Made by a program: the position numbers and the translations under genes | From: Myxococcales bacterium | Lineage (GTDB): Bacteria > Myxococcota_A > Polyangia > Polyangiales > Polyangiaceae | Direction: 5' to 3' | Assembly: GCA_903642325.1 (NCBI GenBank) | Contig: CAHJWM010000041.1 | Span: forward strand, 1 to 43,762 | DNA: 43,762 nucleotides | The notes under the pieces: model-generated | The model's input: only the letters and a program-made list of their open reading frames with translations | What the model was told of the DNA's origin: nothing | The model's database searches: none | Shown here: positions 8,397 through 34,606 of the stretch, in pieces | Layout: the number at the start of each line of letters is the position of its first letter | Numbering within the stretch: position 1 is the stretch's first letter

Positions 8397-9302
8397 TCAG
8401 CCGGCGTGCCAGGCCTGGGTGAGCTCGTCGATGAGAAATTGCCGGAAAATGGTGACGGACGCTGGTTGAAAGCGCGCCGCCGGCCAGACCACATTGAGGT
8501 CCGCACCGCTGCTCGCATAGTCGGGCAACAGGTGGACGGGGGATGGCGCGGCTTCGCGCGCCGCGGTGAACCGTACCGCGGTCACTGGCAAGAGCCCAAT
8601 GCCCAAGCCCGCCGAGACCGCCTTTTGGGCCACCGTCATATCGTCCACGCTGACGGGGCCCTGCACAGTCACCTGCTCATCCCCGCTGGGACCGCGCAGG
8701 CGCCACTCCGCCTTACCGTTTTTACCGTTGAACAGCACACATGCGTGGTCCGCGAGCTCCTCGAACGACTTGGGGCGGCCGCGCCGTCGCAGGTAGCTCG
8801 GGGCGGCGAACAGAGCCAATGAATCGCCACCGATTTTGTGGGCGATCAACGCCGAGTCGCGCAACTTGCCGGCCCGCAGCGCGACATCGAAGCCCTCCGC
8901 GATCAGATCGACCAACCGCGATGACAGCGAGAGCTCGATGTGAACGAGTGGGTACGTGCGCACGAAGCGCGCCACCAGACCGACGAGGTCCAGCACGCCC
9001 GAATTGGCGGGTGCCGTGACGCGCACGATGCCGCGCGGAACCGCGCTCGAGTTGGTCGCGGCCGAAGCCGCTTCCTCGAGCCCGGTCAAGGCGAGCCGCG
9101 CTCGGGCGTAGTAAGCGTTGCCCGCTTCGGTCAAATGAAGCTGACGCGTAGTGCGTTGCAGCAAGCTCACTCCGAGCTCCTCCTCCAAGCGCGCCACGGT
9201 GCGACTCACCGATGACTTAGGCAGCCCCAAATGTCTCGCTGCGGCGGTGAAGCTCTCGAGCTCGACGACTCGTAAGAACACCGAGACGTGGTTGAGGTTC
9301 AT
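8397..9302 (-). CDS. LysR-family transcriptional regulator
   Basis: A 301-residue LysR-type regulator. The winged HTH is at residues about 1-60 (MNLNHVSVFLRVVELESFTA, AARHLGLPKSSVSRTVARLE). The C-terminal periplasmic-binding-protein-like effector domain follows, with VTAPANSGV, FDVALRAG and ISAGLGIGLLP-like segments. It belongs by sequence style to the large AaeR/DhcR-like group often divergent from redox or DoxX genes. ATG 9302 is preferred over ATG 9311 because it gives the canonical LysR start. It is divergent from doxX at 9394, with a dyad at 9316-9330 between them. It therefore probably regulates itself and doxX; the ligand is unknown. Confidence 0.9.
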   Translation of the reverse strand: MNLNHVSVFLRVVELESFTAAARHLGLPKSSVSRTVARLEEELGVSLLQRTTRQLHLTEAGNAYYARARLALTGLEEAASAATNSSAVPRGIVRVTAPANSGVLDLVGLVARFVRTYPLVHIELSLSSRLVDLIAEGFDVALRAGKLRDSALIAHKIGGDSLALFAAPSYLRRRGRPKSFEELADHACVLFNGKNGKAEWRLRGPSGDEQVTVQGPVSVDDMTVAQKAVSAGLGIGLLPVTAVRFTAAREAAPSPVHLLPDYASSGADLNVVWPAARFQPASVTIFRQFLIDELTQAWHAG

Positions 9303-9315
9303 TGTTAGCATTTTA

Positions 9316-9330: not shown

Positions 9331-9393
9331 GTTTGGGATGGCTTGTGACCGGTGCGACAACAATTAAGCTGTTTCTCCTAGGAGAAATCGCGC

Positions 9394-9843
9394 ATGTCCA
9401 ACATCACCAGCAAAATCCCCACCGCCGCCCGAATTTTACTCGGGCTAATCTTCAGCGTCTTTGGCTTGAATGGGTTTCTCCACTTCATTCCAACGCCGCC
9501 CATGACGGGCGGAGCCGGTGCATTCGGCGGCGCCATGTTCGCCACGGGCTACCTGTTTCAATTACTCAAGACCACCGAGGTCGTCTCGGGGCTCTTGCTG
9601 CTCTCGAACCGGTTTGTTCCGCTGGCCTTGGCGCTACTTGCGCCGGTCGTGATCAACATCGTCGCGTTCCACGCCTTTTTGGCGCCTTCGGGTTTGCCAT
9701 TGCCGCTTTTGATCTTGGTGCTCGAGGTTTACTTGGCGCGCAGCTACCGCAGCGCGTACTCCGGTATGTTGCAGGCTCGCACCGTACCCGATGCGGGTGC
9801 GTCGGCGTCCAGCCGCTCGCCCGCCACCGCGCACGCAAGCTGA
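9394..9843 (+). CDS. DoxX-family membrane protein
   Basis: A 149-residue inner-membrane protein of the DoxX-like family with four membrane segments: about 10-30 (AARILLGLIFSVFGLNGFLH), 50-70, 75-100 (ALALLAPVVINIVAFHAF) and 105-125 (LPLPLLILVLEVYLA). The FGLNGF and IPTPPM region is typical of the family. DoxX relatives include the small subunit of thiosulfate:quinone oxidoreductase and other redox-linked membrane proteins, but most are uncharacterised. CTAGGAGAAA precedes the ATG as a strong ribosome binding site. The C-terminal 25 residues are low-complexity. Divergence from a LysR gene suggests inducible expression. Confidence 0.85.
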   Translation: MSNITSKIPTAARILLGLIFSVFGLNGFLHFIPTPPMTGGAGAFGGAMFATGYLFQLLKTTEVVSGLLLLSNRFVPLALALLAPVVINIVAFHAFLAPSGLPLPLLILVLEVYLARSYRSAYSGMLQARTVPDAGASASSRSPATAHAS

Positions 9844-9942: not shown

Positions 9943-10236
9943 TCAGCCGCAACGAGACGGCGGAGCCGCGCACTTGAAGCGCACCTGATAGAGCCCGGCC
10001 AGCGCGGTGACCGCGAAGACGATGGCAGCGGCGCCGCCCAGCGCCTCCGGCAGCACGGACAGCTTCTGAGTGCTGGAAACGAGGAAGAGCTCGAGCGGTA
10101 GCGGCAAGTGAACGTTGGCAGAATTGAGGACCCCGGCGGTCATGACCGCGACGACCGCCCCGGAGACGGTGCCGAACAGGCCGAGCAGCAAGGACTGCCA
10201 GAGGAGCACCCGCCCTGCACCCCCGTCGCGTTCCAC
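9943..10236 (-). pseudogene. Stump of an FtsX/MacB-type ABC permease (C-terminal part)
   Basis: A 97-codon frame whose GTG directly abuts the TAA stop of padR (TAAGTG). Its sequence matches the last two membrane segments of FtsX/MacB-type permeases: LLLGLFGTVSGAVVAVMTAG, then VHLPLPLELFLVSS, then IVFAVTALAGLYQ. The first two thirds of such a permease and the usual final PALRAARLxPVxAL helix are missing; the frame ends instead in an unrelated Cys-containing tail. I read it as the remnant of a transporter once controlled by the upstream PadR protein. It may still be translated because it is coupled to padR. A short intact membrane protein is the alternative. Confidence 0.55.
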
Positions 10237-27887: not shown

Positions 27888-31718
<3,831 letters not shown>

Positions 31719-31731
31719 CGTTACGGACTCG

Positions 31732-32700
31732 TCAGCTAGGGGAATGTCGCTTGCCCTTGGGCGGGGCGTGGTCTGCAGCTCTTGGCTTGTCGGCGGTCGC
31801 CAATACCACTTCCAGATGGGGTTTCTTTGCCTCGCGACAGGCGACGCCGCAGCTCTTTACGGCGAGGCCCGCGCGCGTGAGCAGACTGCGCAGGGAACGC
31901 GGTGAGAAGCCTGGGTGGCGCTCTCCGTAGCGGGCCGTTACCTCGTGCTGTTGATGCTCGTTCAGGCACAATAGAACGATGCGCCCCCCGGGCCGCAGCA
32001 CGCGTGCGCATTCCGCTAAAGCACGGGCGGGTTGTTCGGCATAGGTTAGCGTGTGGAAAACGAGCACGGCATCGAAAGCCGCTGCCGCAAACGGTAGTTG
32101 ATGAACGTCCGCCACGCACGCCGTCACGTGCTCGAGCTTGCCCAGCCGCTCGTTGGCGGCTTCGATCATGCGAGCGCTGGTGTCGATGCAGGTCAGTGAC
32201 CTGCAGTACGGCGCTAGCGCCGCTGCCGCTGCGCCATCGCCGGAGCCCACGTCGAGCGTATCGCCGAGCTCGAGGAAGGCGGCGATGCCGAGCGCGAGCG
32301 ACTGCCAGGTCCGGCCCGGCGAGTAATAGCGTTCGAGCTCATCGGCGACGAACTCGGGGAGGCCGCCCCGACGCTCGGTCTCGAGCTCTTGCAAGCGTTT
32401 TTGGTCGCCGAGTAACGTCGGATCCAGAGAGCGCGCCGCCTCGTCGATCACGGTGCGGGCCGTGCTTGGTAGCTTGTCCTGCGCGAGACCGTAAAAGCAC
32501 TGCGTCCCTTGCCGCCGATCCCAAACGAAGCCCGCCTCACGCAGCCGACCAAGGTGCGTAGACACGCGCGATTGCGCCATCCCCGTCACGCGCACCAGAT
32601 CAGAGACACACAGCTCGCGCTCGCGCAGTAGAGCGCATAGCCGAATGCGGCTTTCGTCACCGAGCAGGGTCAGCGTCTCTATGTACTGGGACAGGGTCAT
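31732..32700 (-). CDS. ArsR-type regulator fused to SAM methyltransferase domain (SahR-like)
   Basis: A 322-residue two-domain protein. Residues about 1-85 form an ArsR winged HTH ([51 protein letters not shown]). Residues about 140-310 form a class I methyltransferase fold with [17 protein letters not shown] (SAM/SAH loop), [20 protein letters not shown] and [17 protein letters not shown]. This architecture matches proteobacterial SahR, an SAH-sensing repressor of methionine-cycle genes. Its position directly before metH supports that. It may bind SAH or SAM as a signal rather than methylate anything. ATG 32700 was chosen; it abuts the dyad at 32701. The frame open to 32757 has no ribosome binding site support. 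Confidence 0.88.
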
Positions 32701-32712
32701 ATATCCTGATAT
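32701..32712 (-). promoter_or_regulatory. Candidate autoregulatory operator of the ArsR-methyltransferase/metH operon
   Basis: ATATC-CT-GATAT, a 5-2-5 dyad, lies immediately before the ATG of the ArsR-fusion gene and includes its AGGAT ribosome binding site (on the minus strand ATATCAGGATAT-ATG). Such an AT-rich palindrome stands out in this GC-rich context. Repression by the encoded protein is inferred from position. Confidence 0.5.
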
Positions 32713-32814
32713 CTCAATGCGCGGATGGTCACTCGTCCCGTTTCGCCATCGCGTCAAGCGTGCGTCAAAACCCCGTCGAATTTGGCGGGTGGCCCGGGGG
32801 CGGGAGAAGAGCGC

Positions 32815-32945
32815 GGAGCATCAGTGAAGGTGATGGGTCGGCCGAGTTGCCGCGAGAACTGTTCAGCCATGGCGGCGTGGGTGAGCGCCTCCGCACCGGT
32901 AACGTCGTAAGTTTTACCTGCGTGCCCGGGCTCGACGAGCACTCC
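32815..32945 (-). pseudogene. NmrA-family oxidoreductase fragment, middle part, inverted
   Basis: Read on the minus strand this gives VLVEPGHAGKTYDVTGAEAL then THAAMAEQFSRQLGRPITF and TDAP, the segment about 80 residues before the C-terminus of NmrA-type NAD(P)-binding proteins. The following residues to the stop at 32754 (RSSPAPGPPAKFDGVLTHA) do not fit the family. The missing next segment is found on the opposite strand at 33001-33210. The N-terminal Rossmann half is absent. This is one piece of a gene broken by a local inversion. Confidence 0.7.
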
Positions 32946-33000
32946 GTCGCCGACAAGCGCCCCGGCGCGCGGCAGGTGATCTGTGCCCGCGTTCAGGCGA

Positions 33001-33210
33001 CCGCCAGGCTACGCGGAGGAGGCGATGCGCGGCGCGCTCCTCGGCATGAAGATGCCCGAGTGGCAGGTCGACGGCCTGCTCGAGGATTACGCGCATTACC
33101 GGCGCGGCGAGGCATCCGCAGTAACGTCCGACGTAGAGCGGGTGACAGGATTTCCCGCTCGGCCCTTTGCCGCGTTCGCGCGGGATTACGCGCCGGCATT
33201 CACGCGCTGA
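33001..33210 (+). pseudogene. NmrA-family oxidoreductase fragment, C-terminal part
   Basis: On the plus strand the frame reads PPGYAEEAMRGALLGMKMPE, then WQVDGLLEDYAHYRRGEASA, then VTSDVERVTGFPARPFAAFA and RDYAPAFTR with a stop at 33208-33210. This is the normal C-terminus of NmrA-family proteins, including the MPEW, DVERVTG and FARDY landmarks. Its natural N-terminal neighbour (ending RPITFTDAP) lies inverted just upstream. Both the codons and landmarks are well kept, so the break looks recent. Confidence 0.7.
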
Positions 33211-33242
33211 GCCCAAGCCTACGTTCGATGCCCGCTCGCGTG

Positions 33243-33998
33243 CTAGCTTTCGCGCTCGACGACCACTCCGGGGGCTTGCGTCGCGACATCGCGCGGAGGG
33301 CCAATGGTGGGCTGCCACTGATGCATGATCGCGCGCGAGCGCGGCAGGGGCGGTAAGTTTTGCGCGCGAATCGCCGTCCGCAGGCGTTGGTAGGCCAAGC
33401 GATGCCAAGCTCTTTGATATGGGCGGGCAAACGCGTGAAAGCCAATGCGGGTCCACCAATTGGGCAATGTCCCCTCGCGCCAGGCGGCTTGGATGCGGAA
33501 GCGAACGTCACCCGAGCCGTGGTCTTTCGTGAGCAGAAACCACTCGGCGCCGGATTCCAGATGCCCTTCGAGCGTGTCGTAGCGATACCCAAACAACGTG
33601 CGATCTTTAGTCGCTTCCTGCCGGGTTTCGCGCACGACCACGCCGCACAAGAAATGCAAACCCATGACTTTCAACTCGAGCAACATCGGTCGCCCGCGCA
33701 GCTCGAGCAATGGATCGAAGTAACCGCGGACGATGGACGGGTCAGAAAACTCGTAGCCCGCCACGAGCTTCCGTGCTTGCTCGAACGCGCCTCCCGCCTC
33801 GGGCGGGCCAGGCGGCTCGCGCCCGATCACGGCTTCGGAGTAGTAATGGTGCCAAGACGGGTCTCGCGCCGCCTCATCGTCCGAGGCCGGACCGCTGCTG
33901 GAACATTGGGACAACGCGCTGAGGCGATACTGCAGCTCGTCAGGGCTAAATGTCCGCGCCCAGCGCCAAGCTGGCGCGCACGGGTTGCTAGCCGCCAT
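33243..33998 (-). CDS. DUF1990 family protein (second of a coupled pair)
   Basis: A 251-residue protein with a DUF1990 domain: FSPDELQYRLSALSQCSSSG near the start, then GYEFSDPSIVRGYFDPLLEL, LLELKVMGLHFLCGVVVRE, FGYRYDTLEGHLESGAEWFL, LTKDHGSGDVRFRIQAAWRE, and a C-terminal PYQRAWHRLAYQRLR. The family is small, found in plants and bacteria, with a steroidogenic-acute-regulatory-like or lipid-binding fold suggested but no proven function. ATG 33998 was chosen because it overlaps the stop of the preceding gene by one base (TGATG), meaning coupled translation. The first gene of the pair is a paralogue. Confidence 0.8.
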   Translation of the reverse strand: MAASNPCAPAWRWARTFSPDELQYRLSALSQCSSSGPASDDEAARDPSWHHYYSEAVIGREPPGPPEAGGAFEQARKLVAGYEFSDPSIVRGYFDPLLELRGRPMLLELKVMGLHFLCGVVVRETRQEATKDRTLFGYRYDTLEGHLESGAEWFLLTKDHGSGDVRFRIQAAWREGTLPNWWTRIGFHAFARPYQRAWHRLAYQRLRTAIRAQNLPPLPRSRAIMHQWQPTIGPPRDVATQAPGVVVERES

Positions 33999-34606
33999 CA
34001 GTCCGAGCCTCGCGCGGTGAAGGTCGGCTTGCATACACTCGCATCGTCTGCGTTCGGCTCGACGTGCTCCGTCTCCGCGTACGTTTGCCCGTTGACGCCA
34101 GAGCCGTAAGTGTTGGCGATGGTCTCGACGAACTCCACCCAGGTGTTCGTCTGCATCGCCTCACCCACGGCGAAGAAGCCCGCAGAGAACGCGGCACTTC
34201 CGGACCGACTCCGGCTCCGAATGTGAAATACGACCGCGCCACTCTCATGGCGATACGAGCCGAATGTAATGCGCCCTGCTTCCGGATGGCCGGCGAGAGT
34301 GGCCAGGGTCACGCTCCGTGGCTCGCGGCACACCACGCGCACGCGACACTCCGCCGCCATGCGAATGGTTATATCGAGCTCGTCTCCCACTTCGAGGGGG
34401 TCCTTACCTCCCCCTGCACGCGAAAAGGACACCAACTCGGGTGGCGGGAATTCGCAAAAGCGGTGACGTAAGTCTTCGACTAGCTCGACGGGGGACACGC
34501 GGCAGTCATTGATCAATGCCCAATAATCCCGCTGCAAAAGCGCGCCGGAGCCGTTCTCCGCGAGCTGGACATCGAGCTTCAGTTGCTCCGGGCTGGCAGG
34601 ATCCAT
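33998..34606 (-). CDS. DUF1990-like protein (first of a coupled pair)
   Basis: A 202-residue protein related to DUF1990: ALLQRDYWALINDCRVSPVE, then LVEDLRHRFCEFPPPELVSF, GKDPLEVGDELDITIRMAAE, CRVRVVCREPRSVTLATLAG, HPEAGRITFGSYRHESGAVV and FHIRSRSRSGS. The GHPEAGxI plus hydrophobic strand and the RSRS segment are family landmarks. The last 35 residues, from GEAMQTNTWVEFVETIANTY, contain the usual end of the domain and then a polar tail. It has no signal peptide. It ends in the TGATG overlap with the second DUF1990 gene. It is divergent from the small membrane protein at 34693. Confidence 0.75.
   Translation of the reverse strand: MDPASPEQLKLDVQLAENGSGALLQRDYWALINDCRVSPVELVEDLRHRFCEFPPPELVSFSRAGGGKDPLEVGDELDITIRMAAECRVRVVCREPRSVTLATLAGHPEAGRITFGSYRHESGAVVFHIRSRSRSGSAAFSAGFFAVGEAMQTNTWVEFVETIANTYGSGVNGQTYAETEHVEPNADDASVCKPTFTARGSD

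Follow-up and report, generated by a model that had tools for sequence, protein, structure and literature searches.

A probable pseudogene relic of an NmrA-like gene with a 5′ truncation and a 200-bp local inversion

How do two neighbouring pieces of what resembles a single NmrA-like protein come to be encoded on opposite DNA strands, and could the locus still make an enzyme? The window analysed here is the whole of contig C41 (43,762 bp), one of the 140 contigs of a 5.83-Mb draft genome whose completeness is rated at 98.97% and contamination at 3.49%, and the features around the two pieces are listed in Table 1. A preliminary description of this DNA had read the middle of an NmrA-like protein on the minus strand and the part that should follow it on the plus strand, and both of the peptides it quoted were found as described, both in the reading frames and when the organism's own genome was searched with the intact 298-residue homologue of locus L052 (Fibrisoma montanum). 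Residues 188–237 of this homologue match the minus strand at 32811–32960 (56% identity, E 2.2e-12), which identifies the minus-strand piece as NmrA-like, and residues 238–297 match the plus strand at 33019–33198 (65% identity, E 6.1e-18). The pieces thus abut at residues 237/238 of the homologue with a gap of 0 and an overlap of 0, and because they lie on opposite strands there is no single continuous NmrA reading frame at the locus. We conclude that it is probably a pseudogene relic: an NmrA-like gene of the SDR oxidoreductase type that has undergone both 5′ truncation and a local inversion.

Table 1. Features of the NmrA-like remnant and its surroundings (window positions)
Feature	Position	Strand	Remarks
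metH	27888–31718	minus	Named from its own sequence; left of the remnant
ArsR/methyltransferase gene	31732–32757 (frame)	minus	Pfam HTH_5 and Methyltransf_11
Left flank	32757–32813		Between the ArsR/methyltransferase frame and the inverted piece; NmrA similarity not detected
CGCGGAG, 7-bp direct repeat, left copy	32812–32818	plus	At breakpoint 32814/32815
NmrA-like middle piece (ALVGDGVLVEPGHAGKTYDVTG...RPITFTDAP)	32814–32960	minus	Residues ~188–237 of the homologue; upstream edge ~32940 to 32960
Putative inverted segment	32815–33014		200 bp; breakpoints ± ~1 base
Filler	32961–33015		55 bp; not recognisably NmrA; in place of the family's VDVRDI region; all but the last base within the inverted segment
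CGCGGAG, 7-bp direct repeat, right copy	33012–33018	plus	At breakpoint 33014/33015
NmrA-like C-terminal piece (EEAMRGALLGMKMPEWQVDGLLEDYAHY...FARDYAPAFTR)	33016–33210	plus	Residues 238–297; stop 33208–33210
DUF1990 gene	33243–34034	minus	Right of the remnant

The family assignment was examined with the two pieces joined. In this form they match the C-terminal parts of SimC7 (5l3z; E 1.1e-7), the NmrA family regulator 8r2j (E 7.4e-7), E. coli YtfG (E 4.1e-4) and, weakly, triphenylmethane reductase (E 5.8e-3), and the intact L052 homologue aligns with the same four proteins across most of its own length. The NCBIfam model TIGR03649 (ergot_EASG) gave E 1.1e-6 with the joined pieces, which is far below its cut-off; neither piece reached a Pfam cut-off, and the sole Pfam match, DUF7722, was below its own. 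Measured against the NmrA family (PF05368, NAD(P)-binding), the C-terminal half is homologous to NmrA-like proteins, and the N-terminal Rossmann half, the nucleotide-binding part that carries the motif GxxGxxG, is absent from the locus. Thus the C-terminal half is shared with NmrA-like SDR proteins, but the remnant has no Rossmann half and the rest of it is divided between two strands. Among the matches listed when one genome per species was scanned (45 loci), no homologue exceeds 61% identity, and the closest come from Cytophagales, Chitinophaga, cyanobacteria, actinobacteria and others; the best identity in an order-level search (183 genomes, E up to 1e-12) was 46%, and a sample of the phylum (377 genomes, E up to 1e-18) contained no closer homologue. 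Judged by such comparisons of sequence, a horizontal origin of the NmrA-like gene is likely.

To the left of the remnant the gene order is shared with relatives, as metH adjoins an ArsR/methyltransferase (fusion) gene in each of the eight loci retrieved from seven relatives' genomes; of the nine window genes that lie further right, none was matched in the retrieved stretches of those eight loci. On the right side, DUF1990 scores above its cut-off in two adjacent, slightly overlapping minus-strand frames, 33243–34034 and 33998–34606. Elsewhere in the window a 97-aa minus-strand frame (9943–10236) looks like the C-terminus of an FtsX-like permease (E 0.0012 to Pfam FtsX, under the cut-off) and is possibly another relic, and a 153-aa plus-strand frame with weak DoxX similarity (9382–9843; E 0.0082, below cut-off) is divergent from a LysR-like frame (8397–9311, named from its sequence).

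Where was the DNA turned? Eight cuts along the 7-bp repeat were tested, and only when 32815–33014 is turned back is TFTDAP/EEAMRGALL restored without an indel; moving the cut 3 bases leftward keeps the joint in frame but inserts two residues, and moving it 3 bases rightward keeps it in frame but two residues short. The right breakpoint lies at ~33014/33015, mapped to about one base, and the left one is placed by inference at ~32814/32815. The inversion had previously been drawn from ~32815, which agrees with the left end found here, to ~33000 with the joint at TDAP/PPGY; the right end has to be moved, since no other cut gives DAP/EEAM without an indel, and the residues VPAFRRPPGYA that precede the joint on the plus strand give no clear gain in score over shuffles in 17 homologues (in the best case, L064, 56 of 300 shuffles were as good). 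The stretch RSSPAPG... that follows the joint likewise gives no clear gain in the same 17 homologues (the best were L069 and L068, with 42 and 50 of 300 shuffles as good, respectively). Duplication instead of inversion was therefore rejected, as similarity past the joint is not clearly above that of shuffles.

Almost all relatives with a match carry this part of the gene in one piece. When 90 loci were examined with a single joined query, 86 of the 87 with a match span the joint on one strand; the only one that does not is L090, whose frame is apparently garbled upstream, and L039, L047 and L116 gave no match. Because the joined query had also served to collect these loci, the set is biased toward continuous genes, although a split gene would still appear in it as two matches, as it does in the organism's own genome. 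Separate tblastn searches with the two pieces found both in 50 of the 90 loci, on the same strand in 49; the best matches met with a gap of exactly zero in 28 of these 49 and were 3 to 24 bases off in the other 21, of which 20 had a match that overran the joint. In the remaining locus, L111, the separate matches are on opposite strands, yet the single joined query finds it continuous. The absence of gap or overlap, the continuity in relatives and the lack of added score past the joint together indicate that one gene was cut and turned and that these are not two overlapping copies, and the abutting pieces and the relatives' continuity bear out the proposal of an NmrA-like gene with a local inversion. 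Two independent fragments of two gene copies could in principle have become adjacent by chance, as bacterial genomes often hold several NmrA-like genes and this one has 14 matches above the Pfam cut-off, but the pieces meet within the family without overlap or gap, and the genome search gave no further close copy (no other NmrA-like match that covers more than 100 residues exceeds 33% identity to the L052 homologue); we regard such a coincidence as very improbable.

The inversion by itself does not make the gene whole. It had been proposed that turning the segment back restores one continuous frame, and this is correct for the DAP/EEAM joint, but inversion alone is insufficient, since ~55 bp (32961–33015) is not recognisably NmrA and the 5′ end is truncated. 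Residues 1–187, including the Rossmann half, are missing from the locus as the preliminary description had stated, and the whole-genome search found no orphan copy of them, nor was a further copy of the gene found when it was sought. A frame on contig C85 (L003, 14628–15104) is NmrA-like with an early stop (172 aa), lies near the contig end and apparently belongs to a different subfamily; it was judged not to be the missing front half, as it has 33% identity to residues 15–157 of the homologue and that different subfamily affiliation.

In a PSSM test of 32955–33018, 180 of 200 shuffles were as good against the upstream columns and 198 of 200 against the whole profile, and the values for the left flank were 105 and 59 of 200, respectively; part of the middle piece, serving as the positive control, beat 200 of 200 shuffles. 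Of the VDVRDI motif that is conserved upstream of the middle piece in the family, the R aligns here and the D and I do not, and a few residues beyond it an alanine that is invariant in 33 relatives is replaced by glycine (at 32951), so that either the upstream edge of the middle piece is uncertain or decay has begun. Family similarity ends between ~32940 and 32960. Besides itself, 32940–33018 has 26 short matches in its own genome (E up to 10; the best is 20 bp of GC-rich DNA, E 0.0025), which were taken as chance. Since 32961–33015 has no NmrA similarity above that of shuffles, the 5′ truncation would have occurred before the inversion or together with it.

The ends of the segment were examined for traces of how it was turned. 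Each breakpoint is centred in a copy of the 7-bp direct repeat. When 5000 pairs of sites 200 bp apart were drawn at random from the window, 4 had centred runs of at least 7 at both sites, a frequency that should be read as a few per thousand because the centre was taken from homology and three in-frame centres are possible; 403 of the 5000 had an equally good direct match somewhere in the 30-base ends. Reconstruction of the joints gives palindromes of 8 bp on the right (CTCC/GGAG) and 6 bp on the left, from which the direct repeat follows. Inverted repeats at the segment ends are not beyond chance, as the best match was equalled in 1568 of 5000 random pairs. The region 32700–33300 contains 18 short inverted pairs, and the nearest fit among them, a 10-base pair (32806–32815 with 33033–33042), was rejected as a marker of the breaks because the right arm falls within the conserved C-terminal piece. 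A DNA search of relatives gave two short matches that start at the right repeat (33012–33045), and both were set aside as chance in GC-rich DNA: the one in the same-genus genome G004 sits in a transporter-like gene that has no match to the joined protein, and the one in G053 is antisense in another gene, where the best match to the joined protein covers 28 residues (E 1.7e-4).

These end sequences bear on two other causes. The earlier suggestion of a now-lost mobile element finds no support in the inverted repeats at the ends or in the short genome matches of 32940–33018. A reversible intragenic inverton, in which a flip of the segment would switch the gene between two forms, would account for the turning of part of a coding sequence whose residues are well kept. 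Invertible segments of this kind are flanked by inverted repeats and occur in a population in both orientations. Like them, the locus has a piece of DNA turned round within a gene, but it has no inverted repeats beyond chance and instead a centred direct repeat, which argues against reversibility, and flipping the segment back gives no complete alternative frame, as a recognisable front half is still lacking; we consider an inverton extremely improbable.

The truncated and inverted relic appears to be young. Conservation was counted over 33 of the 45 loci (6 without a C-terminal match and 6 with frames outside 240–340 aa were left out); columns at least 95% conserved in these relatives are kept at 16 of 16 positions in the C-terminal piece and 2 of 3 in the middle piece, and those at least 90% conserved at 17 of 17 and 6 of 8, respectively. 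Both pieces are free of internal stops, and their GC content at the three codon positions is coding-like (0.76/0.51/0.69 in the middle piece and 0.73/0.52/0.80 in the C-terminal piece). The kept columns, the lack of stops and the coding-like GC would together fit a fairly recent event, in keeping with the good preservation and probable recency first suggested, and the case is stronger for the C-terminal than for the middle piece.

The rearrangement is known from one genome, a draft, and the division of that draft into 140 contigs would favour an artefact of assembly or amplification, in which a chimeric contig or read hides an intact gene of the real genome; amplification chimeras resemble such inversions, according to PMC1855051. 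However, an artefact would need two junctions and a lost front half, not one junction, and the search did not find the front half elsewhere in a genome rated nearly complete. Assembly k-mers are usually longer than the 7 bp of the direct repeat. We therefore think an artefact rather unlikely.

If the rearrangement is real, an ancestral NmrA-like gene would have stood divergent from the ArsR/methyltransferase gene, would have lost its first ~187 codons with the cofactor-binding Rossmann half, and would have had the 200-bp segment (codons ~188–237 plus ~54 bp of other DNA) reversed in place. The cause may have been an error-prone local event, either a replication template switch or the end joining, at ~2 bp of shared sequence, of a flipped fragment, and the inversion event perhaps also made the truncation. 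More specifically, one template-switch event could have deleted the first half of the gene and inverted the adjacent 200 bp by way of a single short palindrome at the joint, the reconstructed CTCC/GGAG that now appears as CGCGGAG at either end; we put this forward tentatively, as a possibility that is more doubtful than not, and if it is true the locus would be an unusually readable natural record of inversion with deletion without inverted repeats. Short-range template switching yields a segment replaced by its reverse complement in great-ape genomes, as described in PMC7954356 and PMC8755829, and the microinversions and template-switch mutations treated there are short segments turned into their reverse complement. 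A microinversion in addition leaves its flanks unmoved; at the right end of the segment studied here the sequence agrees with this, as turning it back restores DAP/EEAM, whereas at the left end the missing front half of the gene leaves no joint to compare. The human–chimpanzee microinversions of PMC8755829 are <33 bp long and flanked by inverted repeats, whereas the segment here is 200 bp long, has no such repeats and is accompanied by a truncation. Judged by title, none of the papers among the literature matches listed concerns a pseudogene with a microinversion of this kind.

A working enzyme cannot be expected from this locus, which overall is a case of ordinary gene decay with an unusually clear small inversion and no evident function. 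Small inversions of this sort are easily overlooked by annotation, as each piece is too short for a gene call, and the locus could illustrate how bacteria come by local inversions that lack flanking repeats.
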